From the NCBI GenBank assembly GCA_963920765.1, contig OY987247.1, forward strand, positions 7,846,471 through 7,910,470: a stretch of DNA of 64,000 nucleotides, given 5' to 3'. A program made the position numbers and the translations under genes. The stretch's first letter is position 1, and each line of letters begins with the position of its first letter. The notes under the pieces were generated by a model that saw only the letters and a list, made by a program, of their open reading frames with translations, ran no database searches and was not told the origin of the DNA. Origin of the DNA: Ulota crispa (lineage: Eukaryota; Streptophyta; Bryopsida; Orthotrichales; Orthotrichaceae). Below are positions 3,282 to 63,294 of this stretch, piece after piece.

Positions 3282-4210
3282 TTAACTCCTAAAGGACCAA
3301 AGTCCCCTCAGGGTACAAATGGGATTTTGGGCATGTACCTATGGTTAATCTACTTTTTGTGATTTTCTGAAACTTTTATTGAAGGTGGGGAATTCAAATA
3401 TCTATGTGGGCATCTAATTTTTTCTTCATTCCGATATTTGATGAAGAAGTTATGCATGAATTTATGAAAAATGGTGTTCGAGGGGCAGCCAAAAACTTCT
3501 TTAAAATTTTCATTTTTTTCAAATAAAAAACTGAAATAGGTTCTTTAGACTTGTATAGACGTGGGGAGCTTTGAATCATTCAATTTTGATACATGAGATG
3601 AAAGTTATGAGGAGTTTTTGTTTGCGGGCAATTCTAGACTCTCTACCCTAAAATAAACTTTGAAGTCCTTTATTTTACTCCATTTTCAATATTTTGAAAA
3701 AAAAACAAAACCAATGGATGTAGATTGTTTATCACAACATTATACCCGTTGGGATTTGCATTTTTCATTTTTATAATTAAATTCTTAACAATTTGGTGTT
3801 TTGACACATTCTCTACTTCTTTTTACTTTGTATTTTTTCCCATGTGTTGTATAGTTCCAATTGATTTGAAAATTCTCCCACACATACCTAACTTGGTCTT
3901 CTACATGGGAAAAATAAACCTCAACTTTGTGTAGAGTAATTTTTTTGATCTAAGAGTGGTCAAAGCCTTCTGAAATTTCTGGACAATAGCCAAAAAAAAA
4001 CTCATTTCTGCAATTCAGATGTAAATATCTCACTCCTTTTTGTGTAGATTGAGCTGAATTTTTTGCCACATGTACCTCTTGTAGTCTAATGTAAGATCTT
4101 ACAATTGAATTCTTGTAAAAAAAAAATTCTTACCATTGTACTTGCTTCTGCAAAAGTGGCAGTTTTCTATGTTTTTCATAGAAAAAATGGCTTGGTCCTT
4201 TAGGGGTTAA
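3282..4210. mobile_element. piggyBac-like TTAA MITE (family pB-A, full length)
   Basis: Bounds include both TTAA copies. The left end is TTAACTCCTAAAGGACC and the right end GGTCCTTTAGGGGTTAA. The 929-base, AT-rich interior has no transposase. The same interior recurs at 7974-8846, 10667-11582, 37821-38773 and 62222-63150, and as a fragment at 23310-23447. TTAA duplication with CCC-type ends is the hallmark of the piggyBac superfamily. Confidence 0.8.
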
Positions 4211-5099
4211 CACTTAACCCCTAAATGCCTAGGGTCATTTTTGAGCTACTAGAAATTTGCTCTAAGCTAAATAAAAAGTCAGCATTTTGATAAGTTGTAT
4301 TAATTTTTTTAAATTGTAACCATACAAAATCAAACTAAATATGTTAAAGATCACATAGAAAAAGAAAACGCAACAATATCATTTGTGGATTGAAAGATTA
4401 TAATGTTTGATCAAGGGGGTGTTAAAACTACAAAAATGACTTCAAGTCTTTCAATCCTCCTTTTACATGTCAAATCTCAAATGTTGATCACCAAAAAAAT
4501 ATGAGGTTAAAGGACATAACATACATAACTCCAATCCATTTACGTCTTTTCAAAATCTCTTTTAAATTTTTTTTAAACGAATCTTTTGTGTGAATTTTTC
4601 TCCAAGATCTAGTGTATTTGAGGCTCATTCCCAAGAGTTCTCAACACTAAAAAAGTCAAGATTGCAATGGATACCCTTGCACACAATCTTGAATAGAAAA
4701 TTCACAATTAATAATTTTCAAATTTGGGTTTTTGATGCTAAAACTAGACTTCAAAAAGAATTATCCTAAAATATTAAATATTAAGAATAGCAGCTTAATT
4801 ATGTTTTATTGAACTTCAAAATATGGTTGGCACCAAAATGTGGTGCCTTAGGCATTTAGGGGTTAAAGGACCATAGGGCATAGTATACACGCTGCCGTAT
4901 AATTGGTATTTGCTACAAATAAGAAGTTTTAGTCTGGGATTTCAAGTAGTTCACTAGAATTACTTTGATCTATTCTCCAACTTCTTTGTTGATCTCTAAT
5001 GTAGTAGAGGTGTGGATCCATTCCAAATACAAGAAAAATACCCCGTGTTGTATTGGTCGCAAAGGGCCTCTCAATTGTTTAAGGGTTAAGTTTTACAAA
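4207..5099. mobile_element. piggyBac-like TTAA MITE (family pB-C) split by a nested element
   Basis: The left end is TTAACACTTAA (4207-4217), interrupted by the element at 4214-4866. The interior resumes at 4867 with AGGACCATAGGGCATAG and runs to GGGTTAA at 5093-5099. With the nested element and one TTAA removed, the left end reads TTAACACTTAAAGGACCA, nearly the same as TTAATCCTTAAATGACCA of the sister copy at 43144. Its left TTAA is shared with the preceding element. Confidence 0.75.
4214..4866. mobile_element. piggyBac-like TTAA MITE (family pB-B), nested
   Basis: The ends are TTAACCCCTAAATGCCTAGG and CCTTAGGCATTTAGGGGTTAA (quoted to 20 bases: CTTAGGCATTTAGGGGTTAA). It is 653 bases long and inserted into the internal TTAA of the terminal repeat of the 4207-5099 element. 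Its interior is shared with 35033-35691. Confidence 0.8.
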
Positions 5100-5415
5100 A
5101 ATTTCATGGATACCCCTGAAGTTTGCAATATTTACATAGATAACCCATGTTTTTCAGAAATTATACAAATATCCTTGGTTCATAAATTTCAAGTGTTTGT
5201 TATATTGTGCTTGCCACTTCTTTCTCCCTTGTATGTACACTGCTTCCTTTATGTTCTATTGCACTCCTTTTTTTAAAACTAGTCATGAAAGAAGTAGCGT
5301 GCCCAACAAAACAAACACCTGAAAATGATGGATCAAGGGTTTATGTGTAATTTTTGAAAAACCAAGGGTATTTATACAAATATGGCAAACTTTAGGGGTA
5401 TACATGCAATATTCC
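5097..5415. mobile_element. MITE family B, copy 1
   Basis: The arms carry TTTCATGGATACCCCTGAAG on the left and the inverse CTTTAGGGGTATACATGCA followed by ATTCCC on the right. This family also occurs at 5754, 21362, 52227 and 58467. The left boundary is decayed, so the start is approximate. Confidence 0.6.
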
Positions 5416-5480
5416 CTTAATTTTTGTGTGGAAATAAGCTAAGATTTACTAGAATGTATCTAAACCAACTAACTCTTAAC

Positions 5481-5737
5481 AACACAATATTCATCACAAG
5501 GGGAAAAAGCTTACAAAGTGGGACTTTTGAAGGATTAGGGTGGTCAACTGAATCCAAGCTCCAGCGCTTTTTTTGGTACATGTGGCCTCACCTGAGAGGA
5601 GGAATTTGCGAGGGGAAAAATCTTAGTGGCTCAAACTGAATCTGATACCTTCGAATCTGATTGAAGGTGGCTATTTTGGATTAAGGTGAAATACAAAATG
5701 GTACACATATTTTTCCCCTTTTAATGAATATTGTGTT
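5481..5737. mobile_element. MITE family G, copy 1
   Basis: The left AACACAATATTCAT and right ATGAATATTGTGTT are inverted. Next inward are GGGGAAAAA and TTTTTCCCC. The interior (CCTGAGAGGAGGAATTTG) is shared with the copy at 53221-53475. Confidence 0.6.
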
Positions 5738-5753
5738 TAACCCCAATTTTTTT

Positions 5754-6073
5754 GGGAAAATTTCATGGATACCCTAGAAGTTTGCAATATTTACATAGGT
5801 ACCCTTGGTTTTTCAAAAATTGCACAAATAGCCTTGGGCCATAATTTTCAAGAGTTTGCTCTATTGTGCATGCCACTTCTTTCTCCCTTGTGCACACAAT
5901 GCTTCCTTTCTATTCTGTTGCACTCCTTGCTTAAACATTGGTCATGAAGGAAGCAATGTGCATAGCAAAACAAATGCCTGAAAATTATGATTCAGGGGTA
6001 TTTGTGCAATTTCTAAAAGACCGTGGGTCTATACAACTATGGCAAACTTTAGGGGTATCCATAAAATTTTCCC
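5754..6073. mobile_element. MITE family B, copy 2
   Basis: The left end is GGGAAAATTTCATGGATACC, and the right end is GGTATCCATAAAATTTTCCC. It is 320 bases long. The interior contains the family's CAAATACCCTTGG-type phrases in inverted orientation. No protein is encoded. Confidence 0.75.
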
Positions 6074-6487
6074 TTTGTTTTTTGTGTTTTTACACGAAAA
6101 CTTTTGATGCCCTTCAAAAAAAAAGAATTATGTGTTCAAATTTCTCTTCAACATTGTGCTAGTCACTATGGCTACTTACTATAGTTGCATTATGGTATGA
6201 CAAGTGCTCACACATTATAATATCGTTTCTAAAAGTTGCATATGTCAACCTTACATGTCGCCCTCATAAAAAATGCAAAAAGGCATCATGGAACTTAACA
6301 CCATGTTTGTGAATCTTCTCACAATTTGCATTACCTCAGTATATGAGTGCATTTTGTGAGGTTATTCTTTTGCCCTCCATGATGGACCATGTCTCCATGA
6401 TTAGTTTTTCTTTTGAAATTGGATGAAAGCTATCCGACAGCAAAATTGGTCATCTATCCAGCAAAATAATATCCGCATATTTGGCGC
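6074..6487. other. AT-rich intergenic DNA, nothing recognised
   Basis: No gene, RNA or terminal repeats are visible. Confidence 0.4.
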
Positions 6488-7399: not shown

Positions 7400-7973
7400 G
7401 GGTTAAAAAATTAATTCTAATACTCAAGGCTTGTTTACCATGTACATTGAGAATGCCCTTATCATATATACTTGCACAATTTCATTGTATAATCTTGTTT
7501 TTATGTACTTGACCTTAACCAAAATCTCTATTTTACACAAAGTTGTTTACAAAATCCTTCTATATATATACATAGAGATGGGGACATAAAGATCCATTCA
7601 CCACTCAAACTTTTCCCATGTAGTCAATATTTCACAAAATCTAAAACTTAAATTACATATCTTGAAATTTCTAAGAATAGATTGAGGATATATTGGTAAT
7701 AGATTGATGATGGACTTGTAGTAATTTTAAAAGCATTTCAATCATAAGTTGATGATTTTTTCAAATATTTTTTAGTAACCCTTCTCATAATTTGATTCAT
7801 GTCAAATCTTTGTGCATTGTCTCTCTTTCTATCTACAAGAGGCTTACTTGAGTTGAGACAATTTCAAGCTCTAAAAGGTGGTTAAAAGCTAAAAAAGTTG
7901 TTGATGGACCGTGGAAGATTAGAAGTTGATGAATATAACATATTTGATAGACCAAAATTGCACTTGGTATGGG
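7400..7973. other. AT-rich intergenic DNA, nothing recognised
   Basis: Contains a short TATATATA run near 7561. No gene or inverted-repeat element is resolved. Confidence 0.4.
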
Positions 7974-10666: not shown

Positions 10667-11582
10667 TTAACCTCAATTGTGGAGCAAAGTTTATTTGTAT
10701 TGCAAGGCATGTACTTATGGCTAAACTACTTTGCATGATTTTTTGAAACTTTTATTGAAGGTGAGGAATTCAAAGATCTACGTGGGAATGTAAGTTTTTC
10801 TTCATTCCAACATTTATTGAAGAAGTTATGCATGAAAATCCAAAAAATGCTGCCCCCCGGGCACCCAAAACTTCTTTAAACTTTTCATTTTTTTCAAATA
10901 AAAATCTGAAATAGGTTCTTTAGACTTATATAAACATGGGGAGCTTTTAATCATTCAATTTTGATAGATAAGATGAAAGTTATGAGGAGTTTTTGTTTAC
11001 GGGCATTTTTAGATTCTCTACCCTAAAATAAACTTTGAAGTCCTTTATTTTACTCCATTTTCAATACTTTGGAAAAAAAACAAAACCAAAGGATGTAGAT
11101 TGTTTATCACAATATTATAGCCATTGGGATTTGCATTTTTCATTTTAATAATTACATTCTTAACAATTTAGTGTTTTGACTCATTCTCTACTTCTTTTTA
11201 CTTACTATTTTTTCCTAGGTGTTGTATAGTTCCAATTGATTTGAAAATTCTCCCACACATACCTAACTTGGTCTTCTACATTGGAAAATAAAACCTCAAG
11301 TTTGCGTAGAGCAAATTTTTTGATATAGGAGTGGTCAATGACTTCTGAAATTTTTGGGTATTACAAAAAAAAAGTATTTTCTTCACTTCACATGTAAATA
11401 TCTCACTCTTTTTCATTTGAAATAAGCTCATTTTTTTCTTCCCAAACACCTCATACTGTCTAGAGCAAGATCTTACGGTTAGATTTCAAAAAATAAAATA
11501 AAATCACCATTTCTTTCATCCCCAAAAGTGGCAATTTTCAATGTTTGTCATAAAGAAAAGGGCTTGGTCCTTTAGGGGTTAA
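10667..11582. mobile_element. piggyBac-like TTAA MITE (family pB-A)
   Basis: The right end GGTCCTTTAGGGGTTAA is intact. The left end is decayed, and I place it at the TTAA at 10667-10670. The interior matches 3282-4210 in the same orientation (for example CTACCCTAAAATAAACTTTG near 11018). Confidence 0.65.
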
Positions 11583-12779: not shown

Positions 12780-13700
12780 TTAACCCTTAAAGCCATGTTG
12801 TCCCCGTGGGGGACAAATGGGATTTCAAGCAAGTACCTACGGCCTCAATTTTTTTCTCGCTTTTTTGAGACTTTTTTTGAAAATAGAAATACACATTAGC
12901 TTTTAGGGAATATATTTTTATTCCAATCTATGCAAGAGAGCAAAAGTTATGCTCATATAAGCAAAAATTTATGGAGATCAGGCATAAATTATTTTTTTAC
13001 ATAAAATGTTTTTTTTATAAAAAAATCTCATAGTTTATAGTTTTTTTTACATTTGAAGCTTTGATTCATTCCATCTGGACTAATTAAGAGAAAGCTATGG
13101 ACAATCTTGTTTTTTGGGCAATTCAAGCATCTTTTTGAAAAAATAACTTATAAACTTCATTTTTGAATACAAGTTTAACACTTTTTCAAAACAAAATGTT
13201 GGTAAGGGTGAAGTTTGCTTTCCGGAAAAATCTCACCATTGGGATTATTGTGTTTCAATTCCATCGCAAGGTTATCAACAATTTAAGTTTTTGTTCTATC
13301 TCATACCTTCTTCTACCTAATGTTTCTTTTAAAGATGAAAACTAAGTATTTTTTGTTTTGATTTATTTCAAAAGATTCTCAACTCAATTCTCCAACATAA
13401 AAAATTAAACATAAAAACTCTAAGGTCCAAAAACTTTAAGTTAAAAAAGTTCAAAGTCAAATTATCTAATCATGCAAGGTGCAAAAAAATTTGTTTTTTA
13501 CACTTAAAACGCAAATATCTTGCAATTTGTGCTATCAAAGTTTTTGATTTTTTTTCCACATTCTTGTACTAGTCTAGTACAAGATCCTACGGTTAGATAT
13601 GCAAAAAGACCAATTTTCAAACTTTTTTATTCTTTGCCATAGAAATAGCAATTTTGAGTGTCTTTTGACAAAATAAAGGACCCATGACTTTAGGGGTTAA
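12780..13700. mobile_element. piggyBac-like TTAA MITE (diverged pB-A relative)
   Basis: The left end is TTAACCCTTAAAGCCATG, and the right end is CATGACTTTAGGGGTTAA. It is 921 bases. Phrases such as GGGACAAATGGGATTT and AAGATCCTACGGTTAGAT tie it to pB-A, but most of the interior has diverged. Confidence 0.75.
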
Positions 13701-16135: not shown

Positions 16136-16383
16136 TTAACCACTGAGCGCCCAGCACAAATTCACTCAAATTCAAACCCTTTGGAACTCATTCCAATCAA
16201 ACTATCATTTAAAAAAGATTCACAAAAATTAACCATACCAATTGGTAGTGAACATAGGCCCGGATCTCTAAGGAAAAGGACACAACCTTTCATTGTACCA
16301 TTGAGAAACTTATAACAGTCAAACAAGGAACTTTTTTGAAACCAAGAGGCCATATTTTGGCCCCTTGGGCGCTCAAGGGTTAA
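16136..16383. mobile_element. piggyBac-like TTAA MITE (family pB-D, copy 1)
   Basis: The ends are TTAACCACTGAGCGCCCAG and TTGGGCGCTCAAGGGTTAA. It is 248 bases including TTAA and shares its right TTAA with the next element. The sister copy lies at 40955-41199. Confidence 0.75.
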
Positions 16384-16617
16384 CCACTGCGTGCCCAATC
16401 AACATTATACTGTCGATGGGGCCCACAACGATATCTTACTTTTTCTCTTAATTTGTACGGTGAAAACAGTCATGCCTAGTCTCCATCAGCAAAGAAGGTA
16501 GCCATTTTTCAAATCCTACGATCACTTTTTCTGAATGTAATTTTCCAAGCTGTGGTGGCCATTAAAACCCTCATTTGCTCCTAAATCTTAAAATAACTCT
16601 GGACGCTCGGGGGTTAA
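16380..16617. mobile_element. piggyBac-like TTAA MITE (family pB-D, copy 2)
   Basis: The left end is TTAACCACTGCGTGCCCA, and the right end is GGACGCTCGGGGGTTAA. It is 238 bases. Its left TTAA is the right TTAA of the preceding element, so one element landed at the other's boundary. Confidence 0.7.
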
Positions 16618-16887: not shown

Positions 16888-17771
16888 TTAACCCCTAAAG
16901 TTCTTTGGTGTTTACATGGTCAAATGGCTCAAAATTGACCTTTCTCGATAAAATGAATAGTGAATTAAAATTTTGAATTATTTTCAATAATTTAACTGTA
17001 AGATTTATTTTTTCACTTGCTTATGTGCATTCTCGCAAAACTTCAAATTTTGTGAAGGCATGCTTCATTAGATTATAACACTCAAATTAGGGCCAAAACT
17101 TTTTTTGAAGCTTCTTTTAGGTGTCAATTTCTTTTTCAGTCATTAAATGATATCTTCCACTTTATGAATTTCTTGTGCAATTTAACTTTATTGTAGAGAA
17201 TGAAGTTGGCTAAATGCCTCACAAATTTCATGATCACCCAATGCTTCAAACATAATGGAAAAAAATCAAAAGCTAGATTTGCTTTAATTTGTTCAAATTT
17301 TCACCTGGGAAACTTCACCAAAGAGATTCTTATAGAAATAAATCTCAATTACAAAATCCATGCGGAGTAAACCTATAACATCATGTGGAGTACTTGCTAA
17401 AGTGATTTTTTTAATAAATAAAAAGTAAAATTGAAGTTGTTACATAGTCAAGGAGAGTTGATTGGAAATTTTACCCATTGACCAAGCCATTGTAAAGTGC
17501 TTTTGAACACTATTTGGGCAACACCCTTCCTCAATCCCTTTGTTTCCAAATTTTTTTGTGGATGCCTGTGTTGACATCTAAATCACATTTGGTACCATAT
17601 CTCACTCAAAAATTATTCAATTCCACTTTTTTTGGGAAATATGCAAGCTTTTTCAATATGAGGACATACACCCTTATTTCCACAATTCTTATCTTTTATA
17701 TTTACTTGAGAAATGCTTGCCCAAATATCCCAAAAGCCCACAGTGGGCTCCTCGGTCCTTTAGGGGTTTAA
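16888..17771. mobile_element. piggyBac-like TTAA MITE (unique interior)
   Basis: The left end is TTAACCCCTAAAGTTCTTTG, and the right end is CGGTCCTTTAGGGGTTTAA. It is about 884 bases. One extra T before the right TTAA is probably a later indel. The interior is AT-rich and non-coding. Confidence 0.65.
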
Positions 17772-21361: not shown

Positions 21362-22101
21362 GGAAATATTGATGGATACCCCTAAAATTTGCTATATTTG
21401 TATAGATACCCCTGATTTCTCAGAAATTACACAAATATTTTTGACATTTCAAAGGAGCATCTCAAGTACTTTTGGAAATATTTGTTTCAACTATTTTGTT
21501 TTGTCTTTGTGTGTTCATGTGCTTCAATTAAGGTATTCATTGTAAGATCTAGAAACAATGATTTTGAAAAAGCAAAATAACAATGTCAAGGGTATTTGGG
21601 CAATTTTTGAAAGGGAATTGATATATGTACCACACCTTTTTTACTATTCTACCACACTTACTATATATGGTCAATATTTATGATATCATAGTAGGTGAGG
21701 ACCATTGTTTAAACCTCACTAATTTGAAAATATAGTTTGACATAGAAGTTGCAACTTTGGCTTTGCTTTTCAACTCTAAATCTTGCTTGTAGTATTGATT
21801 TGAAGATTTCAATTAAACTTAGCATTATTTAGATATTTTCGTTGTTACTATGAGCAAGATTTGGAATTGAAGAACAAAATTGAAATTGCAACTTTTATGC
21901 TAGATTGTATTTTCAAATAAGTTATGTTTTGCTCATGGTCCATACCTAGTTGCCTACTATGATATCATAAATACTGAACGTATATAGTAAGTGCTGTAGA
22001 ATAGTCAAAAAAATATGGTGCATATATCAATTCCCTTTCTGAAAAATCAGGGACATCTATACAAATATTGCAAATTTAAGAGGTACTTATCAAATTTTCC
22101 C
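21362..22101. mobile_element. MITE family B, copy 3, split by a nested element
   Basis: The left GGAAATATTGATGGATACCC and right GGTACTTATCAAATTTTCCC are inverted ends. The element is interrupted at 21613-22035 by a family M palindromic element. Confidence 0.7.
21613..22035. mobile_element. Palindromic Mutator-like MITE (family M, copy 2), nested
   Basis: The ends are GGGAATTGATATATGTACC and its inverse. The flanking 9-mers TTTTTGAAA (21604-21612) and TTTCTGAAA (22036-22044) match at 8 of 9. It is inserted inside a family B element. Confidence 0.8.
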
Positions 22102-23309: not shown

Positions 23310-23447
23310 TTGTCATGCCCACACAGATCTTTGAATTCCCCATCTTTCATAAAAGTTTCAAAAAATTACATAAAGTAGTTTAGCCATAAGTACATGCTTG
23401 AAATCCCGTTTGTCCCCCGCAAGGATAAGTGGTCCTTCAGGGGTTAA
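23310..23447. mobile_element. Truncated piggyBac-like TTAA MITE (pB-A end fragment)
   Basis: The last 138 bases match the pB-A end that carries TCAAAAAATTACATAAAGTA and the terminal CCTTCAGGGGTTAA. The other end is missing. Confidence 0.65.
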
Positions 23448-23520: not shown

Positions 23521-23752
23521 TTAACCCCTAAACGGCCCGAAAGCCCTTTGCGGCCGTATGTACATTTGTATGTATAGACATATTTGAGCTGCTTTGAGGG
23601 GTTTTCAAAATATTTTATGCACTCACCATCATACAACCCTTCAATATGTATGGTTGTAACACTTAATTTTTAGCAGATTCAAACTTCTGAATATTGGTTG
23701 CAACCATATTTGATACCGTATCTCCAGAGCCCAAGGGCCCTTCAGGGGTTAA
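23521..23752. mobile_element. piggyBac-like TTAA MITE (family pB-E, copy 1)
   Basis: The ends are TTAACCCCTAAACGGCCC and GGGCCCTTCAGGGGTTAA. It is 232 bases including TTAA. The inverted sister copy at 37593-37824 has the same length. Confidence 0.8.
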
Positions 23753-24149
23753 GGGAATTGATATGTGCATACCAGAGGTTTGATATTTGCACACTGGCGG
23801 GAGGGGTAAATTTTAGATATTTATCATTAACAAGCTGAAGTTGGAAATTTTGAATTCAAATTTGGATTTATAAACCTTGATTTTGTTTAGAACTACAAAA
23901 GAGGTTACAATTGAACAACGTCCCATGAAAAAACTTAGCTCGGGGGCAAATTATTACCTTTATCGTTATTTATAAAAAAAGCTAAGCTTTTCCATTGGGC
24001 GTTGTTCAATTACAACTTTTTTTTTTAATTTTAGGCTAAATCATGATCTCTAAATCCAAATCTAAATTCAAAATTCTCAAATTCAGCTTTTTCATGGTAA
24101 AAATCTATAATTGCATATATCAACCCCCAATGTGCACATATCAATTCCC
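23753..24149. mobile_element. Palindromic Mutator-like MITE (family M, copy 3)
   Basis: The ends are GGGAATTGATATGTGCA and TGCACATATCAATTCCC, with a palindromic interior as in the other copies. It abuts the TTAA of the preceding element. The flanking 9-mers do not match, so the target duplication is lost or one end has been rearranged. Confidence 0.65.
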
Positions 24150-37592: not shown

Positions 37593-37824
37593 TTAACCTC
37601 TGAAGGGCCCTTGGGTTCTGGAGCTATGGTACCAAATAGAGTTGCAATCAATATTCAAAAGTTTAAATCAGTTAGAAATTGAGTGTTACAACCATACATA
37701 TTGAAGGGTTGTATGATGGTGGGTGTATAATTTTTTTTGAAAAGCCCTTAAAGTAGCTCAAATACATGTGTACATACAATTGTACATACAGCCGCAAAGG
37801 ATTTTTGGGCCGTGCAGGGGTTAA
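37593..37824. mobile_element. piggyBac-like TTAA MITE (family pB-E, copy 2, inverted)
   Basis: It starts TTAACCTCTGAAGGGCCCTT and ends GGGCCGTGCAGGGGTTAA. It is 232 bases, the same length as 23521-23752, and the reverse complement of it. It shares its right TTAA with the next element. Confidence 0.8.
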
Positions 37825-40486: not shown

Positions 40487-43400
40487 ATGCAGGGTGGTTG
40501 TAGTAGTTACGTGGTCGAGCCCCGGTGTGTGGTTACCAGGAGAGCTCTCGATCTGCACAGGCCGGGATGTGTAGTAGCATCATCGTCATCAGCAGCATCG
40601 ATTGAGAGGCGCTTCGTGACGATCGAAGCTCTGCAATGGAACCCTAGGCAGAGAGGCCGCCGTGGCAATTGGTGTGACGTCGCGGGAGCTTCAGTTAGGG
40701 TTAGATCTAAGGAGCAGTCTTTATTACGCTGTGTCGCATCGGCTGGATCGCCTGCGAGACATGGCGAAGTGAAGCAGGGAGAGCAACAAGAGGTTGTTGA
40801 AGATGACTGTGAGGGTAGCAATGTGTCGTCGACTGTGAGCACCAACGGCAGGACTCCGGACGTGGAGACGACGACGGGCTCGTCTATTCCAGGTAGGGTT
40901 ATTCTCGTCGTCTTCGTTTGTACCAATGCTGGACTATGAACTCTTCTTGCGAACTTAACCCCTGAGCGCCCAGAGTTGAAACGCGAAAAGCTTTACTTGT
41001 GTGCAATCAAAGTGCCCATGTGGATTGAAAAATACGATCCATAAGATCTGACCATATGAATTGTTAATGGAAAGCGTCTCCATCATGACTTGATTGGAAG
41101 TGGTTTCACTGAATGTGCAATGAGATTATATCGGTCAAAATTGAGTTGACTTAACTTTTTCATTGACATTATAATGTCTCTTGTGCGCTCAAGGGTTAAG
41201 GCCTGTTTCCACTTAATTCTAGTAAAAAGTTATGATCTTTTTTGTTAAGAATAACAAAGTAGGTGCACAAAGGGTAAGCTTACTTGCAACTTGCAAATGT
41301 TGTAGCAAGGATGAATAGTACTTTTGGTATTTGTTGTTCACACTATTGGCAAAGTTAAAAGTCACTAGTATTATTTAATTCACCATCTTCACCAACTTTA
41401 CACGATACCATGATTAGTACTATCAAACCTTTGTTTTTCTTGATTTTGGATTTAAATGATTTTTAGCAAAAAGTTATTTATGTGATTGTAGTTTATTACG
41501 ATTTCTACATACTAAAATTGATGTTATCTACTACCACCAACCCTGCCAACCAGGTTTGGTTCTTAATCACCAACTCAAGTGGGAATGCCAATTAACCATC
41601 TAATACTCACCTAAGATAGCAACACCCATAACCATCATTGCATCTATAACCATCACTTCTAAAATCTTGGAAAATTTGTGGAAGTGAATAGATGTAATTA
41701 CAAGGGTGTACAACATGTGAACATGAAACCTTAGTGTTGGTATTAGGTGCAATTGCAGTCGGTTCTTTAAAAATTCACAACTTAAGGTAGGAGCACCCAT
41801 AAGCGTCAATGTCCCCATAACAGTCACCTTTGAAATATTGAAAAATCTGTGGAAATGAATAGATGTAATTACAAAGATGTACAACATGTGAACATGAAAA
41901 CCTTAGTGTTGGTTATGAGTACAATGGCAGTTTGCTCTTTAAAAATTCATGGTTGCTCTTTAAAAATTCACAACTTATTCTCACAGTATCCAAATAATAC
42001 ATTTGAAACTGCAAACTCATCATTTTTCTCTTCCTAATAGGATCGTATAATTTGCTAGATGTTTAATAATCATCATGTTCAAAACCCTGAATTTGACGGT
42101 TATGGGTGCTGCTACCTTTAATTTAATTGTGCGTTCAAACTTATGTTGTGTGTGGTTGGCAGGGTTGATAATGCCGCCATTGACGACAGTGGGGAAGTCG
42201 ACCAACATAGCGTGGGAGGGGTGCATGGTGAAGCGCCAAGACCGGCAACAAATGCTCAACCAGAAGGGATGCGTCCTCTGGATCACGGGGCTCAGCAGCT
42301 CAGGCAAGTCCACGCTCGCCTGCACGCTCGACCACGCGCTCTTGAAGCTCGGCAAGCTGAGCTACGTCCTGGACGGCGACAACGTCCGGCACGGCTTGAG
42401 CAACAACCTCGGCTTCTCCGCCGACGACCGAGCGGAGAACATCCGTCGAGTGGGCGAGGTGGCCAAGCTCTTCGCCGACACCGGGGTGATCTGTATCGCT
42501 AGCTTCATCTCCCCCTACAAACGAGACCGCGATGCATGCAGGCCAGTGTTCTTTAACCCCTAAAGGATTGTGTTGTATATTGTGTATGCTCTCTTATGTT
42601 GTATACAGATGGGGGTATTTGGGTAGCACATGAATCCGTAGATTTTAAGCCAAGTTACAAACATACTACCAACTAACTGGGATTTTTTGGGGATTTTTTG
42701 GCATTTGTCATAAAGCCTATTCTTAATCGGGAATTGATATGTGTACCACACCCTTTCAAATACTGTACCACACCCCCAAAGTAAATTTTAGATTTTTACC
42801 ACAAAAAAGCTGAATTTGAAAATTTGGAATTCAGATTTGGACTTAGAGAGACCATGATTTAGTCTAAAACCACAAAAAAGTTGCAAATAACAACACCCTA
42901 TGAAAAAACTGATCTTTTTTTACAAACAAAAGTAAAAGTAATACTTTCCTCCCTAAATAAACTTTCTCATTGGGTGTTGTTAATTGCAACTTTTTTTTAT
43001 GGTTCTAGACTAAATCATGGCCTCTAAGTCCAAATTTGAATTCCAAATTCTCAAATTTAGCTTTCTGATGGTAGAAATCTAAAATTTACTCTGGGGTGTG
43101 GTACAATAATTGAAAGGGTGTGGTACACATTTCAATTCCCTTCTTAATCCTTAAATGACCATAGGGCATAGTATATATGATGTTGTATAATTGGCATTTG
43201 TTACCAATAAGAAGTTTTAATTTGGGATCTCAAGTAGCTCACTAGAACCGCTTTGATCTATTCTTCAACTTCTTTGTTGATTGTAAATGTTCAAATATAG
43301 TAAAGGTGTGAATCTATTCCAAATACAAAAAAAAAACACCTTGTATTGTATTGGTTGCAATGGTACGTTTAGGGGTTAACCTTTAAATGACCATGGGGTA

Positions 43401-44276
43401 TAGTATATATGCTGTTATATTGGCATTTGCTACCAACAAGAAGTTTAAATTTGGGATCTCAAATAGCTCACTAGAAACACATTGATCTATATTTCAACTT
43501 CTTTGTTAATCTCAAATGTAGTAAAGTTGTGAATTCATTCCAAATACAAGAACAATACTTCATATTGTACTGGTCAAAGTGGCATGCTTAGACGTTTAAC
43601 CCCTAAGCATCATAGCATCATAGCATCATAGCATTTTCTAGATCAGGATTCCAGGAACAACCCAATCATCAAACCTTATAATTTTTGCATCTGTACAATG
43701 GGTTTTTACAAGAATTACAGATTTGCACTTGTTAAGAAGTTGCCAACATAATTCTATGGTGGATTTTTCAATTATGGCTTGAACCCGAACAAAACCCTCT
43801 CCCAAACTTATCTAGATTCATGTTTTGTTTGTGACGCTTAGGGGTTCAGGGTTAAACTGGCTAAATTTTGTAGGATTGCTAACAAAATTTCCATGCAGCT
43901 AACAAAAAATGTAAACTTTTTCAATGTCAAATTTGAAAATTTTAGCTTGTTAGCAGTGTTTTTAGCCACTTATGCTAAAAGTGAAAATCATATTTGGGAT
44001 CACTGGTGCAGGCAGCTTATGGCGCCTGGGGATTTCATCGAGGTGTTCATGGATGTGCCGCTGGAGGTGTGCGAGGGGCGAGATCCCAAGGGGTTGTACA
44101 AACTCGCCAGAGCTGGGAAGATCCAAGGCTTCACTGGTGTTGACGACCCCTACGAGGACCCTCCCGAAGCCGAAATCGTCATGAGGCCCTTGAATGGCGT
44201 GTGCTCTTCTCCGCAAGACATGACTGCCCAAGTGCTGGCGTATCTTGAACAGCATGGATTCCTCCACAGCGCTTGA
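40487..44276 (+). CDS. APK: Adenylyl-sulfate (APS) kinase, plastid type, three exons
   Basis: Phosphorylates APS with ATP to make PAPS, the sulfate donor for sulfotransferases. Exons: 40487-40892, 42163-42541, 44012-44276; phases agree and give 349 residues. Exon 1 encodes about 136 residues, Ser/Arg/Ala-rich and poor in acids at first, like a plastid transit peptide. Catalytic core: P-loop GLSSSGKST (178-186; the usual third Gly is Ser), DGDNVRHGL (206-214), [23 protein letters not shown] (250-254), [13 protein letters not shown] and [10 protein letters not shown]. Cys156 and Cys189 have the 33-residue spacing of the redox disulfide known from Arabidopsis APK1, so redox control is likely. 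Intron 1 is GT-AG. Intron 2 begins CAG|GCCAGT, a GC donor. Both introns are filled with MITEs. An ATG at 40364 in the same frame is a possible longer start. Confidence 0.93.
40955..41199. mobile_element. piggyBac-like TTAA MITE (family pB-D, copy 3), in APK intron 1
   Basis: The ends are TTAACCCCTGAGCGCCCAG and TGTGCGCTCAAGGGTTAA. It is 245 bases including TTAA and lies 62 bases after the exon 1 donor. Confidence 0.75.
41602..41784 (+). repeat. Partial tandem copy of the adjacent family A2 element
   Basis: About 180 bases (AGCAACACCCATAACC ... AAAAATTCACAACTT) directly repeat the left part of the element at 41785-42118, including ATAGATGTAATTACAA and TACAACATGTGAACATG. Confidence 0.65.
41785..42118. 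mobile_element. TA-flanked MITE (family A2, copy 2), in APK intron 1
   Basis: The left AAGGTAGGAGCACCCATAAG and right TTATGGGTGCTGCTACCTT are inverted. It ends 44 bases before exon 2. The interior is almost the same as 45552-45869. Confidence 0.7.
42553..42728. mobile_element. piggyBac-like end fragment in APK intron 2
   Basis: TTAACCCCTAAAGGATTG at 42553-42570 is a pB-type terminus. No partner end is found before the next element, so this is a truncated copy or a chance match. It starts 11 bases after the exon 2 donor. Confidence 0.4.
42729..43140. mobile_element. Palindromic Mutator-like MITE (family M, copy 4), in APK intron 2
   Basis: The ends are GGGAATTGATATGTGTACC and its near inverse. 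The flanking 9-mers are identical, TTCTTAATC at 42720-42728 and 43141-43149. The right copy contains the left TTAA of the next element, so it inserted into that element's terminus. Confidence 0.85.
43144..43379. mobile_element. piggyBac-like TTAA MITE (family pB-C, copy 2)
   Basis: The left end is TTAATCCTTAAATGACCA, and the right end is GGTACGTTTAGGGGTTAA. It is 236 bases. It shares its right TTAA with the next copy and has the same interior as 4867-5099. Confidence 0.75.
43376..43599. mobile_element. piggyBac-like TTAA MITE (family pB-C, copy 3)
   Basis: The left end is TTAACCTTTAAATGACCA, and the right end is GGCATGCTTAGACGTTTAA. It is 224 bases, a diverged tandem partner of 43144-43379 in the same orientation. 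Confidence 0.7.
43596..43848. mobile_element. piggyBac-like TTAA MITE (unique interior)
   Basis: The left end is TTAACCCCTAAGCATCA, and the right end is TGACGCTTAGGGGTTCA, where the last TTAA appears as TTCA. ATCATAGC is repeated three times next to the left end. It is the third element in an end-to-end chain. Confidence 0.65.
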
Positions 44277-48650: not shown

Positions 48651-48852
48651 GAGTCTAAAAAGACCCAATTTTATTAAAAACTCAATTTCATTCATTAACC
48701 AAATTAAAGTTTTTGTGAAAAGATGGCTCGCAATGAATATCTTCAAGGTGTTGTGTAAAGCACTAGCTTAGTTGTTATGAGAATGAGCTGAGTTGATCAA
48801 TGAACACCAAGTTCTGCCCGATTGACGCCATTGACCACTGACTGTCGACCGA

Positions 48853-49263
48853 CTACCATTTCCGTCGCTTGTGGTGACGTCGTCGGCGATGGTGTGTGCG
48901 TCGCCGCCGGCTCTGCCTGCGCTTACGCCTCGTGCGCCTCGCCTTATGACGGAACCTGTGCGTCTTCTTGTAACCAGTGGAGAGCTTGCGGCGTCGCCGT
49001 GCAGGCACCTCCTGTTCTTCTGCAGCATTCGCCCTCCCAGCTGTTTGAATGAGGCCGAGCTTGTAAGTAGCGCCGTTCTTCTCCACCAGCCCAGACTGCA
49101 GCAGGCCCTGTAAAGTGGAGCTCAGGATCTTCTTATTTGCCGGGTTCAGCTTTTTTTTGTTCGTAGATTCCAAGTGCTTGCGGATCTGCCCAAACGTGGC
49201 TCCATTTTGCCGTTTCAAGTGCACCATGGCGTCCCATATGATGGAGCGCTTGGGTGTGGCCAT
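48853..49263 (-). CDS. Linker-histone-derived, protamine-like protein
   Basis: A single exon of 136 residues. Residues about 6-72 form an H1/H5 winged-helix domain: SIIWDAMVHLKRQNGATFG, then QIRKHLESTNKKKL, the helix KKILSSTLQGLLQSGLVEKN and the strand GATYKL. The tail (about 88-136) holds 22 Arg, 7 Lys and 6 His in 49 residues, with blocks such as RRTRRKRRQSRRRR. Ordinary plant H1 tails are long and Lys/Ala/Pro-rich, so this tail is protamine-like. Liverwort sperm protamines are known to be cleaved from H1-type precursors; a sperm chromatin role here is inferred. The start is MATPKRS, in good context (TTGCCATGGCC). An upstream in-frame ATG at 49359 would add 32 mostly hydrophobic residues and is less likely. 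The gene stands alone and is far richer in GC than its flanks. Confidence 0.85.
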   Translation of the reverse strand: MATPKRSIIWDAMVHLKRQNGATFGQIRKHLESTNKKKLNPANKKILSSTLQGLLQSGLVEKNGATYKLGLIQTAGRANAAEEQEVPARRRRKLSTGYKKTHRFRHKARRTRRKRRQSRRRRTHHRRRRHHKRRKW

Positions 49264-49639
49264 GGCAAGAAAAATGCAATTGCTAAACAAAACACTATAG
49301 ATAAAACTTGGTGGAAGGCATAATTGTAAATTAGGGAATGGATTGTGAGTGTGGGACACTTGCTTTGTTTAGGAATTTTGAAAGGACGTGTTGGAGGTAG
49401 TGAAAGGGTGGGTGGGGGTGGGTGTGGTCGACGGTTGTGATGGTTGATGTTTAAGACGGTTGATGTTCAAGAGTTGAGTCGATTGGAAACGTGAACATTG
49501 CAACGGTTTGTGAAGAGATTAAACAAACACTTGTGAAGGGGTTTTGTTCATATTTGTATTGATTAAAGTTATCATCCAATTTGGATGTGAACGGTTTGTC
49601 AAATGTCAAACACACTACCTGTGATTTCATACATATTGA
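49264..49639. promoter_or_regulatory. 5' flank of the histone-like gene
   Basis: AT-rich upstream DNA on the minus strand, with CTATAG-like and TTTTATC phrases about 35-45 bases before the ATG. No firm promoter element can be named. GGTGGGTGGGGGTGGGTG at 49409-49426 is a G-rich tract. Confidence 0.3.
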
Positions 49640-51584: not shown

Positions 51585-51817
51585 TTAACCCTTTAATGGT
51601 CCTTGGGCTCTGGCTACAGGATCGTATCAATATTGACATCACGTTCCCTTTGCTCTGTTTCCACGCAGCTCTCATGACAATATTCTCTCACGGTTTGTTA
51701 GCTCCCTTGTAGCTCACGTTCCCTCTGCAACTCCCAATTCCTGCTCCCTCCTCCTCCTTGAATACGTACTCCCCTGGCATACAGCCACAAAGGGCATTTG
51801 GGACGTTTAGGGGTTAA
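51585..51817. mobile_element. piggyBac-like TTAA MITE (pB-E relative)
   Basis: The left end is TTAACCCTTTAATGGTCC, and the right end is GGGACGTTTAGGGGTTAA. It is 233 bases. It resembles pB-E at both ends (CTTGGGCTCTGG; CAGCCACAAAGGGC), but the middle is replaced by C-rich unrelated DNA. Confidence 0.65.
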
Positions 51818-52226
51818 AGGTGTGCACTATGTTAACATATCTCCCGTCAATAACCATATATTGTCCAAATTTGCCAGCATAGTCTAAGTTAGTTAAATAT
51901 GACACAATACTTACATTTGGCATTATTTTTTGTTTTCTACTTTTAAATTTGATGACTTCATGCTAATTAAAGTTGTCAATTTGACAAGTCTTTTGTATTA
52001 TTACTTCTATTTTACAACTACAAGTCTATAACTAGAACAAGAGAAGCAAATATGCTCATTTAGTTATATCTATAAATAAAAACAAAATATACAATAAGCT
52101 GTCCGTTAAGCTTGCCTATGTACACATGCGGTTGTCTAAACTTCACTATCTGTTAATTCTCTTTAGCTGGTTTTATTTATTGATCACAAAAAGATTATAA
52201 CCAACTACCAAGGGTGTTTATTTAAA
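51818..52226. other. AT-rich intergenic DNA, nothing recognised
   Basis: No gene or bounded repeat is seen. Confidence 0.35.
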
Positions 52227-52739
52227 GGGAAAATTTGATGGATACTCTTGAAACTTCCAATTTTTATACAAATAACCTTGGTTTTTCACAATTGCACAAA
52301 TACCCTCAAATCATAGTTTTGAGGCGTTTTTTTGTGTGCATACCACTTCCTTCTTGCATTGGGTGCACCCCACTTCCTTCTCACATTGTGTGCACATTGC
52401 TTCTTTCTTGCTACGTTGCACTCCATGTTGCACTTGCTACCCTCACAACATGCTAGTAGAGGTCTTCCGTAAAAGAAAAACACTTGCCAACTTGTAAAGC
52501 AACTTCAATAGGAGCAAGCACAAGGGTTTGTTGTGCTTATGTGGGATGTGTCATGGGAGTGCAACAAAAAAAGAAAATAATAGCATACATACCAAGGGAG
52601 AAGGAAGTTCCTTATATAACAAAACTAATGCTTGAAAATTATGATTAAAAGATATTTGTGCAATTTCTGTAATACTAGGATCATTTGTACAACTATTACA
52701 AACTTCAAGGGTATCCATCAAATTTTTCCTTAATATAAT
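52227..52739. mobile_element. MITE family B, copy 4
   Basis: The left GGGAAAATTTGATGGATACT and right GGTATCCATCAAATTTTTCC are inverted. At 513 bases it is longer than the 320-base copies because of extra CACTTCCTTCT-type repeats in the middle. Confidence 0.7.
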
Positions 52740-53220
52740 TGGCATGATATGATTGGACAAGAATTAAAAGCTTGTATGGTAGAAGCGTCCATGAATATTG
52801 CGAAGTGACACCTAAATATTCTAATGTCATGTGCAACCTCTAAAACTAAACTCTTTGCACATGGACTACTCTCCTATCTAGCATCCTCCAGACTTCTACA
52901 TGCAATTTATAAAGGCCAAAATTAATAAACTAAAACTTCAGTTTTCTCTACACTGCACCTTATGGCATGGTTTGACAAGTTTCCACCATATTTCCTTCCA
53001 AAACCTTACAAAAAGAAGTGCAAAAATCACAAACTATTCATTTTGCAAAATGCTTAATTTGTAATACTATGATACTTGGATAAGTTAGGTCAACCCTTGA
53101 CCCTTGTAAGAGGAACGTTTTGATAGTGTCAAGGACTCAAAGTTCCTCAACTTCCACTAGTCTTGCTTTTTTGTGTTTTGTGTTGGATTAAAATGGAATG
53201 TTAATTTAATGAACAATAGG
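52740..53220. other. Intergenic DNA, nothing recognised
   Basis: No gene or bounded repeat is seen. Confidence 0.35.
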
Positions 53221-53475
53221 AACACCATATTAGGTAATCTGGGCAAAAGGATACATTTTGGGACTCTTAGGTTCTAGGTGATCACCTCGAATCAAGCTCA
53301 AAGTTTTTTTTTTGGTGCACGTGCCCACACTTGAGAGGAGGAATTTGTGAGGGAAAAAATCTTAGTGGCTCACACTAAATGTGATACCTTTGAATTTAGT
53401 TTAAGGTAACTTTTTGGGTTTAAGGTGGAGTACAAAATGATACCTCCTTTTTCCCCAGATTACCTAATATGGTGT
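53221..53475. mobile_element. MITE family G, copy 2
   Basis: The arms AACACCATATTAGGTAATCT and AGATTACCTAATATGGTGTT are exact inverses, with CTGGGCAAAAGG/CCTTTTTCCCCAG next inward. The interior matches 5481-5737. Confidence 0.75.
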
Positions 53476-53478
53476 TTA

Positions 53479-53800: not shown

Positions 53801-53806
53801 TTAATA

Positions 53807-54129: not shown

Positions 54130-54134
54130 TAATA

Positions 54135-58020: not shown

Positions 58021-58050
58021 GAATGATACCCCTTTTCTTAGTGCGTCCTC

Positions 58051-58373
58051 AGGGCATCTCTATTGGTGGCTCAAACACACTCAAAATGGATGAAAAGTGT
58101 GGAGGCCCCTCTCAAAACTTTGAGAGTCTCAAAACACTTTGTCCTACCGTGTCTAACGAGGGGCCTTCAAGCCACTATGCATCGTTATTGATCCTAAGTT
58201 TAGTGAACTTTATCCCCTACTTTCCTTGATAAATGGTCAACTGATTCTATATGGGGCGTGTAGGAGTGCAAGGCCACCTTCAGTTTGAAAAGCATGGATG
58301 GAGATCAAGGAGCTTGAGGGCCAGCTAAAACAAATGGAACACTTTGAAAGAGCTAGACCGGTGGAGATGCTCT
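58051..58373. mobile_element. MITE family D, copy 2
   Basis: The left AGGGCATCTCTATTGGTGG and right CCGGTGGAGATGCTCT are imperfect inverted ends matching the family D copy at 20326-20765. Confidence 0.55.
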
Positions 58374-58374
58374 T

Positions 58375-59123
58375 GACCATCATCAATCTAGCTCTAGAAA
58401 CGACTCACCAAAAATATATATATATTTGTTTTTATGGTGTGTAATTAAAAAGCGTGATTATTATAAGGAAAAGTTTCATAGATATCCATGAAGTTTGCAA
58501 TATTTTCATAAATACTCTTGCATTTTTAGAAATTTCACAAATACCCTTGGACCAAAAATTTTAGGCGTTTGTTTTGTTATGCATGTCACTTCCTTCTCCC
58601 TTTGTGGCCACACTGTTTCTTTCTTGTTATGCTTGCGCATAAAGGAAGAAGGGAAGTGGCATGCACAGTAAAACAAACACTTGAAAATTTTGATCCAAAG
58701 GTATTTGTGAAATTTTTGAAAAAGCAAGGATATGATCTTTAAAAGTATGGCTAACTTGAGGAGTATCCATGATTTTTTTGTTCTTATAGTTGGAAGCATA
58801 TTCAAAAAACTCTTTAAATAAATAAAATAATATATGGAATTGGAAATTGGAAAATAAATATAAAGAAATTTGGTGTGCCGGTAGGGCTGGTAGCCTGGTA
58901 CCATAGATTTTCCTCTAAGCTTGATTTTCCATCTCCTTTTTTTTAGATGTTTTTCCATGGAATTTATTTATATTGTCCAATTTTTAGTTCCATATATTAT
59001 TTTATTTTTTTAAAGGTTTTGGATATGCTTCCAATTGTAGTAATCACATTTTCTAATTATACACCAATAAAAAATAGTAATATTTTTGGTGAGTTGTTTG
59101 TAGTGCTAGATTGATGATGCTCT
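58375..59123. mobile_element. Palindromic element J, split by a nested family B element
   Basis: The outer arms ATCATCAATCTAGC and GCTAGATTGATGAT pair. Next inward are ACTCACCAAAAATAT/ATTTTTGGTGAGT and GTTGGAAGCATATTC/GGATATGCTTCCAAT. The arms stay paired almost to the centre near 58900. A family B element sits in the left arm at 58467-58780, leaving the arms otherwise colinear. Confidence 0.65.
58467..58780. mobile_element. MITE family B, copy 5, nested in element J
   Basis: The left GGAAAAGTTTCATAGATATC and right GAGTATCCATGATTTTTTTG are decayed inverted ends. The flanks ATTATTATA and GTTCTTATA suggest an 8- to 9-base target duplication, consistent with the intact right arm of element J as empty site. 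Confidence 0.65.
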
Positions 59124-60135: not shown

Positions 60136-60760
60136 GGGGGTTTTAGATATGTCTTTTACAGGCAATTTTGTTCACGTGAATGAAATTGGTGAACAAGTTA
60201 GTCAAGCCACTGTTCATGTCCTCATGATCACCCATTCAAATATCCGAATTGTAGTGAACTACTCACCACCCTTTCAACTCTACCCACAATCACTAATTTC
60301 GTACAGATCCCTTGAACTTCATCATTGTTACTTCTAATCTAGAACCCTTTGCCTCCACAATTTTTTGCTTCTAATCAAGATCTCTTGAGCTCCACCATTG
60401 TCGCTTCTTGCGCATTGCGATTCCTTGAATGACCTTGACCTGGCAATCAACTCTGCATCCAAACTATCTAGAGGCGCAGAGTGAGAGCCAGAGGCCCAGA
60501 GCAAGAGCAGAGAGGCTGGCAACAACACAAACAGGCTCGAGCGTGGGCACAGGCACGAGTGCGGGAGCGACACAAACACAATCGGAGCTAGTTGGAGAGG
60601 CAAGGAGGGAGAGACCTCACATCATTCACGCGTGAACAAGCCATGAGGACCTCCTAGAGGTCCTCATGACTTGTTCAATTTTGTGACTCCACGTTCACCA
60701 TGAACAAAAACTTGTTCACAACCATTTGTTCACCATTTTTTTGAGATATCTGAAACCCCC
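60136..60760. mobile_element. Harbinger-like MITE (family F relative)
   Basis: The left GGGGGTTTTAGATAT and right ATATCTGAAACCCCC are inverted, with TTA on the left flank and TAT on the right. Inner arms include GTTCACGTGAATGA-type phrases. The interior (60330-60650) is GC-richer and gives an 89-codon minus-strand frame with no motif. Confidence 0.6.
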
Positions 60761-61950
60761 TATTGAGGAAATCAAGTCATAACTTGTGACAAATGCAAAG
60801 TCAATGAAAAACATGTCAATATCAAAGTACCCACTGACATAGATAATTAAAATCTTTACTTGTAAATACTTAAAGCCATAGTCTATATGGTTGAACCTGG
60901 TCTTACAAAAGAGTCACATTCATGTATGACATATTGAGTTATTAACCAATACCATGTACTTCAGTTTCTTGCAATGATGCTACAAAATTGAATACCTTGG
61001 GTTTCAAACTTTCAATATAGCAAATTTTATAACATAGAATTTTTGTATCTCGTACAAACTTTAACTGAAGATATTGATGACATAAAGTCTACCTCCAAGA
61101 AGAGGCAACAAGGGTGGTTCTTGCTATCCGTATCCCAAAAGCATATATAAAAGAACCACCTCCAACAAACTCTTCATTCATAGTAGCCTTTTGAACCAAC
61201 ATTAATTAAGAAAAAATCAGTAAAGAGATTTTGAAACTGTTTCTAAGTTTGCAATTATTTTGAAATTTTCCCCCATCTATAACTTTTTTTGTGTACCCCT
61301 ATTTGCAAATTCCCCCTTTATAATTCAGGGGTTAGCATGAAAGTTTGCTCTCACCGAATATTATTAGCAATTTACACCAGAGTGCTATTGAAATCTGGCT
61401 ATTTTTTATTTATTTTCTTTAGTTTTTCTGTTGGTATAAGAGTGGTAGAACCCCAAAATTTTGTATGAATTCGGCAATACTAAGCTTAGAGCCACAAAAC
61501 AATAGCTGGAATCAATCCCGTGGAAACAAAAGATAAGGTCCAAATAAAGGCCTTAAGTCAACCGAGTGTAGGGGAGGATTTTTTATTAGTAGGATCCCGA
61601 CCATCACCACTCAAAGTTTTGCTTTTGATTTGATTTTTATTATTTCCATTGGGCCACGAAGGAAAAACAGAAACATAAAAATCTAAAATTAACTTTTGGT
61701 GGGCTACACGTCGCATTCTCTGAGGAGGCGCAAGGGGGTTTCAGAAATAAAGTGAAGTAATTTGGATATGGCCAAGATTTGATTAGACGTAGGGGCAGAG
61801 AAGTTTCTTCCGCCTTTTATCATTGTTCAGTTGTTTTATTTTTACTTTAACAACGGGAGTGAAAGTCCAAAGGCTATGCACCGCCTAGGGAATCATTCCT
61901 CAACCCCTAATTGCAAAGGTTAACTATTTCTAAACTAGGATTTAAAACAC
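60761..61950. other. AT-rich intergenic DNA, nothing recognised
   Basis: No supported gene or bounded element. Confidence 0.35.
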
Positions 61951-63294
61951 GAGAATTGATATCCGTTCCACACCCTTTCAATCGCTATACCACACTTATT
62001 ATATATGGCCAATATATGTGATATTATTGTAAGTGTGGACTGTGGACCATGGGCAAAACATCGCGAAAATATAGTTTAAATAGAATTTGTAAATTTTTGT
62101 TTTGTTTTTTAACTCCAAATTTCCCTCATAGTAGTATTGATTAAAATATCTAAATCACTATAAGTTAATTTTGATCTTTTAATCTATACTATGAGCAAGA
62201 TCTAGAACTAGATAAACAAAGTTAACCCCTAAAGGACCAAGTCATTTTTTCTGTGAAAAACACAAAAAACTGTCACTTTTGGGGAAGCAAGTACAATGAT
62301 AAGAAAAAAAGATTTTTACAAGAATTCAACCGTAAGATCTTATAGTAGTCTACAAGAGGTACACGTGGTAAAAAATTCAGCTCAATCTACACAAAAAGGA
62401 GTGAGATATTTACATCTAAATTGCGGAAATGAGTTTTTTTTTTGCTGCTGCCTAGAAATTTCAGAAGGCTTTGACCACTCTTAGATCAAAAAAATTACTC
62501 TACACACAGTTGAGGTTTATTTTTCCCATGTAGGAAACCAAGTTAGGTATGTGTGGGAGAATTTTCAAATCAATTGGAACTATACAACACATGGGGAAAA
62601 ATAGTAAGTAAAAAGAAGTAGAGAATGAGTCAAAACACTAAATTGTTAAGAATGTAATTATTAAAATGAAAAATACAAATCCCAACGGTTAAAATGTTGT
62701 GATAGACAATCTACATCCTTTGGTTTTGTTTTTTTTCAAAATATTGGAAATTGAGTAAAATAAAGGACTTCAAAGTTCATTTTAGAGTAGAGAATTTAGA
62801 AATGCCCGCAAACAAAAACTCCTCATAACTTTCATCTCATGTATCAAAATTGAATGATTCAAAGCTCCCCACGTCTATATAAGTCTAAAGAACATATTCC
62901 AGGTTTCTATTTGAAAAAAATGAAATTTTGAAAGAAGTTTTTGGCTGCCCCTCAAACACCATTTTTCATAAATTCATGCATAACTTCTTCATCAAATGCC
63001 ATAATGAAGAAAAGTTTACATTCCCACATAGATCTTTGAATTCCCACTGTCAATAAAAGTTTCAAAAAATCACAAAAAGTAGATTAACCATAGGTACATG
63101 CCCGAAATCCCATTTGTCCCTCGAGGAGACATTAATCCTTTAGGAGTTAAAATTGCAACTTCTATGTTGAGTTATATCTTCAAATTAGTGTTGTTATGTG
63201 GTTCACACCTACTATAATGTCACAAATATTGGCTATACAGTAAGTGTGGTAGAATAGTCAAAAAGGTGTGACATGGATACGGATATCAATTTCC
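61951..63294. mobile_element. Palindromic Mutator-like MITE (family M, copy 5), split by a nested element
   Basis: The left GAGAATTGATATCCGTTCC and right ACGGATATCAATTTCC are inverted, diverged family M ends. The interior matches the 21613-22035 copy. It is interrupted at 62222-63150 by a TTAA element. Confidence 0.75.
62222..63150. mobile_element. piggyBac-like TTAA MITE (family pB-A), nested
   Basis: The left TTAACCCCTAAAGGACCAAG and right CCTTTAGGAGTTAA bound 929 bases, the reverse complement of 3282-4210 and the same length. Compared with the uninterrupted family M copy near 21870-21892, excising the element and one TTAA restores a site of exactly equal length. Confidence 0.85.

Follow-up and report, generated by a model that had tools for sequence, protein, structure and literature searches.

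Which transposase moved the many short, TTAA-bounded elements that crowd a 64,000-nt stretch of a moss-like genome (C6:7846471-7910470, hereafter the window; the genome comprises 274.8 Mb in 157 contigs)? We conclude that they are almost certainly non-autonomous piggyBac miniature inverted-repeat transposable elements (MITEs) of a moss, mobilised in trans by the transposases of 5.0-5.7 kb elements, with tips specific to the transposase lineage and with TTAA duplicated upon insertion. The window holds 21 TTAA-bounded elements, 19 complete and two truncated, which together occupy 11,082 bp (17.3%). A preliminary description made from the sequence had claimed at least 20 elements covering about 11 kb in six or more families, with lengths of 232, 240, 655 and 920 bases; those lengths and that total are correct, and about eight families (A, B, C, D, E, F, H and I) were found, with element lengths of 231-953 bp. 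The catalogued elements are as follows.

3282..4210, minus strand: A1, family A MITE of 929 bp, TTAA at both ends; 91% to A6 over the full length
4207..5089 (parts 4207-4213 and 4863-5089), plus strand: D1, split by the nested B1; TTAA 4207-4210 common with A1
4214..4866, plus strand: B1, 653 bp, nested at a TTAA within the D1 terminal repeat; both tips resemble those of coding locus L019
6488..7399, plus strand: F1, 912 bp; 82.5% full-length copy in coding locus L022
7974..8846, plus strand: A2, 873 bp, rearranged family A copy; partial alignments to A1, A5 and A6
10706..11582, minus strand: A3, truncated family A copy with its intact end at 11582; 85% to A1
12780..13700, minus strand: A4, 921 bp, distant relative of family A; 67-74% over pieces
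16136..16383, plus strand: E1, 248 bp; tips CCACTGAGCGCCC and CCCTTGAGCGCCC
16380..16617, plus strand: E2, 238 bp; TTAA 16380-16383 common with E1
16888..17771, plus strand: H1, 884 bp; one additional A separates the right TTAA from the tip
23314..23447, plus strand: A7, family A fragment with one intact tip
23521..23752, plus strand: C1, 232 bp; 86% to C2
35033..35691, plus strand: B2, 659 bp; interior 81% identical to that of B1, right tip resembling those of coding loci L018, L024 and L025, left tip with no clear match
37593..37824, minus strand: C2, 232 bp; aligned with C1
37821..38773, minus strand: A5, 953 bp, right TTAA changed to TTAT; 80% to A1; TTAA 37821-37824 common with C2
40955..41199, plus strand: E3, 245 bp; 23-bp tip identity with locus L012
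43144..43379, plus strand: D2, 236 bp, in an intron of the APS kinase gene
43376..43855 (parts 43376-43599 and 43849-43855), plus strand: D3, split by the nested I1; TTAA common with D2
43596..43848, plus strand: I1, 253 bp, nested within the D3 terminal repeat; its right TTAA has become TTCA
51585..51817, minus strand: C3, 233 bp, ends of C type; its match to C1 and C2 is confined to their terminal 29-40 bp, at 82-88%
62222..63150, plus strand: A6, 929 bp, inside a palindromic element of which 21603-22047 is an uninterrupted copy

Families A, B, C and D are backed by alignments between window copies. C3 has only its ends in common with C1 and C2, the common sequence of the E copies is limited to 20-23 bp of tip, H1 matches A4 over 60 bp of one end, and I1 is a single copy in the window. 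The two tips of A2 agree with each other in only 7 of 13 bases. An orphan tip at 42553 lacks a recognisable right end and was kept out of the catalogue.

Tips and the TTAA target

The element tips resemble CCCYTRAANGNCC and form short terminal inverted repeats starting CCC or CCY, as in piggyBac elements. A model consisting of TTAA followed by CCCYTRAANGNCC matched the window 29 times at 13 or more of 15 informative positions, as compared with a mean of 0.3 and a maximum of 2 matches in 20 first-order random sequences; this excess is partly circular because the consensus was drawn from the window itself, whereas the genome-wide tip count given below reaches beyond it. Scanned without the TTAA (at least 10 of 11 positions), the tip generated 22 matches in the window and 0-5 in random sequences. 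TTAA stands immediately outside 17 of the 22 (background 0.6% per base); of the remaining five, one follows ATAA, one follows TTAAA and three are chance-like. TTAA pairs 200-1000 bp apart with a tip match of at least 8 of 13 bases showed no excess (49 versus 37-70 in 10 random sequences), and pairs with CC at both ends numbered 13 in the window versus 0-1 in random sequences. Among 38 element ends, 36 carry TTAA (the right end of H1, with its extra A, among them), one ATAA and one TGAA; the presence of TTAA was itself part of how these ends were selected, and the TTAA-free scan gives a figure with less bias. The base immediately outside the TTAA is seldom A: it is A at 2 of 38 ends and in 1 of 24 independent flanks (p=0.017 against a background of 26%), perhaps a sign of a wider target preference.

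Two other assignments bear directly on these features. Tc1/mariner-type elements duplicate TA, and their location at TTAA would be coincidental; an arrangement of the form TTA[A...T]TAA is indistinguishable from TTAA duplication. However, a TTAA context surrounds only 9% of the TA sites of the window, as against 17 of the 19 tips judged real among the 22 found (p=3e-16), and the genome-wide tips of family A type favor TTAA over VTAA as described below; together with the piggyBac identity of the coding partners, this makes a Tc1/mariner origin exceedingly improbable. Kolobok elements constitute another TTAA-duplicating superfamily, reported in a green alga and in red algae (PMC9587614). Kolobok ends are described there as 5'-RR..YY-3', whereas the window tips are 5'-CC..GG-3', and nine Xenopus Kolobok tips scored on the tip matrix of the window were indistinguishable from random tips. 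By comparison, four of six coral piggyBac tips scored in the top 5% even when judged against random tips beginning CCC. Because the coding partners carry PF13843, the piggyBac transposase domain, Kolobok is refuted for the families that have such partners, and we consider it extremely unlikely overall.

Nested insertions with recoverable empty sites demonstrate that the TTAA is target sequence and not part of the terminal repeat. Three insertions (A6, B1 in D1, and I1 in D3) could be related to an empty site, each with one four-base target. Joining the flanks of A6 through one TTAA generates a gapless alignment across the junction with the uninterrupted palindromic copy at 21603-22047, which is roughly 70-77% similar and reads TTGA at the junction, or CCAA in its other arm. 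D1 and D3 appear to lack a tip because each carries a nested element in its terminal repeat: removal of B1 from D1 restores full tips and an end-to-end alignment with D2 (192 of 226 columns identical), as does removal of I1 from D3 (192 of 222 columns). The B1 site reads TTAA in D2 and D3, and the I1 site reads TTAA in D1. Thus the duplicated-target interpretation of the preliminary description stands. Tips that read CCCTTAAA contain a TTAA, and elements therefore offer targets to each other within their own ends. F1 likewise seems to interrupt the tip of an E-like element, the final bases of which occupy 7400-7406, as judged from agreement with the tip consensus; no second copy of this E-like element was found. 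Four adjoining pairs (A1/D1, E1/E2, C2/A5, and D2/D3) have one TTAA in common.

Transposase-coding elements elsewhere in the genome

A genome search with PF13843 gave 120 match rows, all above the cut-off (best E 1.3e-73), derived from 116 scored of 528 candidates; 14 control genomes gave none. Twenty transposase loci were studied, which are not a random sample because they were picked mainly for high scores and few stops. In eight of them (L015, L017, L018, L019, L021, L022, L024, and L025) the transposase lies between two TTAA tips, in elements of 5,027-5,746 bp. Left and right tips agree in 12-15 of 16 bases in L015, L017, L019, L021, and L022 (the L017 pair was ranked second) and, paired by hand and counted by eye, in 12-14 of 16 bases in L018, L024, and L025. 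Of the 16 tips of these coding elements, one starts CTC and the rest CCC.

The catalytic residues were read from 11 open reading frame pieces aligned to a protein that is 99% identical to Trichoplusia ni piggyBac. D268 was matched in all 11 pieces and D346 in all 10 that reach this position; D447 was matched in four of five (N in L009), and D450 and W465 in five of five. PF13843 transposases with the triad of aspartates are found inside similarly tipped elements, the third aspartate being read from five pieces. The L009 reading frame matches PF13843 at 8e-60, the T. ni piggyBac structure 6x67 in the Protein Data Bank (PDB) at 4e-20, and Myotis piggyBat 9c0f at 6e-17. The preliminary description had assigned the window elements to piggyBac, proposed a profile search of the assembly and named autonomous relatives encoding another type of transposase as grounds for refutation. 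No such refutation resulted: the coding relatives with such tips encode PF13843, with similar TTAA ends at 8 of the 20 loci. Its suggestion that one transposase mobilises many families is not supported, since pairwise identity among the transposases of the 15 loci compared is 35% at the median and 28% at the minimum, and it is related ones that share tips.

Seven of the eight two-tipped coding elements (L015, L017, L018, L021, L022, L024, and L025, but not L019) carry a conserved coding stretch of ∼80 residues upstream of the transposase, partial in some, with the pattern VNCL..LL.LP...R.W..L.Y..IA..LGW..R...LWP and 27-47% identity between lineages. The L022 and L021 copies had no Pfam match up to E 1, and the L022 copy had no PDB match better than E 0.55. 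Among 88 distinct genome matches at about 1e-6 or better, 46 share the strand of a listed transposase and lie 1.5-4.5 kb upstream of it, one is in the wrong order and none is on the opposite strand; 46 of 88 is a lower bound because only 116 of the 528 transposase candidates were scored. Forty-seven of the 116 transposases have the upstream stretch, which may be an N-terminal exon or a second protein.

Tips and interiors link several window families to particular coding loci. The B1 tips match those of L019 at 15-19 of 20 bases (31 of 40 at best) but those of L018, L024, and L025 at only 9-12 of 20. Conversely, the right end of B2 matches the left ends of L018, L024, and L025 at 15-17 of 20 and 27-30 of 40 bases, their right ends at 12-16 of 20, and L019 at 10-12. 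The interiors of B1 and B2 are 81% identical yet their tips differ, which for this one pair we read as a probable change of transposase partner. Over 22 bp, the right end of E1 shows 95% identity with the left end of coding element L022, and the L012 tip that shares 23 identical bases with E3 lies at 6428 of that locus, 2.0 kb downstream of its transposase. By eye, the right tip of F1 differs from an L009 tip at one of the first 15 bases. A C-type tip at 163 of L028 was rejected as a coding partner because a tip at 1307 better fits the nearest relative of that transposase. Across the 15 loci with a right tip (5 of 20 were left out, having no tip by the rule used), transposase distance and tip distance were correlated (r=0.54, p=5e-5), and omission of the doubtful L023 and L012 and the near-duplicate L017 left r=0.54 (n=12).

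Several observations weigh against this assignment. No transposase was found in the window, where a profile of 120 insect piggyBac proteins gave a best E of 2.2 and tblastn a best E of 0.04; a Pfam scan of the six frames of A1 likewise gave no match. Twelve of the 20 loci did not yield both tips. Present activity is doubtful because only 10 of 120 transposase rows are stop-free. The coding link of family A is a single 58-bp end (86%) in L020, and the left tip of B2 is a poor match to both lineages (9-15 of 20). When each clade is represented by a single locus, the correlation between tips and transposases is gone (r=0.22, p=0.15, n=8), and it therefore demonstrates that relatives share tips, and no more. 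Sequence alone cannot tell TTAA duplication from TA duplication at an obligatory TTAA. Finally, no clear coding partner has so far emerged among the 20 loci for families C, D, H, and I. The last point bears on Sola3-type elements, whose target is TTAA and which might mobilise some families alongside piggyBac in the same genome; Sola1 is listed for the moss Physcomitrella (PMC9033089). The tip type of the piggyBac coding elements is, however, common to all families, and judged by the tips we regard a contribution of Sola3 as very unlikely.

Abundance, proposed mechanism and known systems

A strict version of the tip, TTAACCCYTRARNGNCC, occurs 25,829 times in the genome, versus twice when written backwards, and nine times in the window. 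The A-type tip occurs 3,614 times, 3,038 directly after TTAA, 140 after VTAA and 436 otherwise; the B-type tip count is 305 against 0. With A6 as query, 9,327 candidates were obtained, and each of the 40 that were scored covers at least 898 of 929 bases at 88-92% identity, apart from A6 itself. Scaling the 21 elements and 11 kb of the window by 25,829/9 would give ∼60,000 elements with a combined length of ∼32 Mb (about 12% of the genome), as an extrapolation from one window. The exact 22-base tip had 0 and 0 matches in viral and genome contig collections, from which records of the same genome were possibly excluded.

The piggyBac assignment suggests the following mechanism. Elements of 5.0-5.7 kb elsewhere in the genome would supply transposases acting in trans, each lineage recognising its own version of the CCCYTRAANGNCC tip, inserting at TTAA and duplicating it, presumably by the hairpin cut-and-paste chemistry known for piggyBac (PMC7351741). 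Any DNA that gained a matching pair of tips would become mobile, which would account both for unrelated interiors with similar tips and for one interior with two kinds of tip. Copies that are 80-92% identical point to activity over a long time. A broader proposal, to which we give even chances, is that these elements form a deep piggyBac branch of mosses' own, with long elements, an extra segment in the transposition machinery, about a tenth of the genome filled by tens of thousands of MITEs, and interiors that switch lineage through their tips.

piggyBac itself is well known, chiefly in animals and fungi. Like the animal elements of T. ni (6x67) and Myotis (piggyBat, 9c0f), those described here combine PF13843, conserved aspartates, TTAA duplication and CCC-type tips (PMC10813416, PMC12732532). 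They differ in the conserved upstream stretch, in the moss-like host, in a transposase only 21-26% identical to the T. ni type, and in length (5.0-5.7 kb versus 2.23-3.52 kb for bee piggyBac; PMC10140906). Coral CMITEs are likewise short MITEs of the piggyBac type that have TTAA and CC[C/T]T tips, form tandem arrays and insert into one another at TTAA (PMC2872659); the coral elements have a conserved interior and differing terminal repeats, however, whereas here the tips are alike and the interiors unrelated. Among land plants, 1,230 Ceratopteris fern repeats (122,417 bp) are labelled PiggyBac (PMC6890710), but as a repeat-annotation label at 0.00% of the genome, with no transposase, tips or target sites described in the accessible part of that source.

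A 2022 review of land-plant transposons treats six terminal inverted repeat superfamilies, and a term search found no 'piggybac' in it (PMC9033089). A 2025 paper calls piggyBac only occasional in plant genomes, naming red algae (PMC12732532); a 2024 plant review counts it among plant superfamilies, without an example in the portion available (PMC10794571), and piggyBac is stated to have been isolated from plants also (PMC10813416). A paper on the moss Niphotrichum was rejected as a piggyBac report, the word appearing in the text available solely as 'piggybacking'. Relative to the accessible text of PMC9033089, PMC12732532, and PMC6890710, and within the open-licence literature, several features look new: the host, the scale, how many lineages coexist in one genome, the length of the elements together with their additional domain, and the pairing of a single interior with two types of tip. 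Here piggyBac is genome-wide and abundant in a moss-like genome in which many transposase lineages occur together; the specificity of transposases for tips, partner change by MITEs and the origin of plant piggyBac therefore become testable. The elements could also provide a TTAA-specific tool for plants. If the broader proposal above is correct, moss piggyBac would be a major class of land-plant transposon that has been overlooked until now.

Host genes and other repeats in the window

The host was identified mainly from an APS kinase gene with exons around 42186-42542 and 44007-44270, whose relatives include Ceratodon purpureus (85-86%), Selaginella (74%), Adiantum ferns (70-71%) and one further record at 90%. 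The moss Ceratodon is the closest of the named relatives, in keeping with the land-plant host of the preliminary description, and judged mainly by this one gene the host is moss-like. The APS kinase intron (42543-44005) consists mostly of TTAA elements and a palindromic MITE and, read from the sequence, apparently begins with GC instead of GT. A linker histone on the minus strand (48856-49368; PF00538 just above the cut-off) has a long arginine-rich tail in the style of protamine-like sperm proteins, and three relatives are arginine-rich too; such a protein would fit a plant with motile sperm.

Palindromic MITEs at 994-1410, 21603-22047, 42726-43142, 61953-63296, and 23780-24144 have, by eye, mostly GGGAATTGATA-like ends. 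The one at 42726-43142 lies between perfect 9-bp repeats, TTCTTAATC, in the manner of Mutator-like elements, and the flanking repeats of those at 994-1410 and 21603-22047 agree by eye at 8 of 9 positions. A pair of small elements (5481-5737 and 53221-53476) has the ends AACACMATATT, and a further palindromic family (5098-5429, 5754-6073, 52210-52740, and 58464-58781) has ends that include ATGGATACCC-like sequence.

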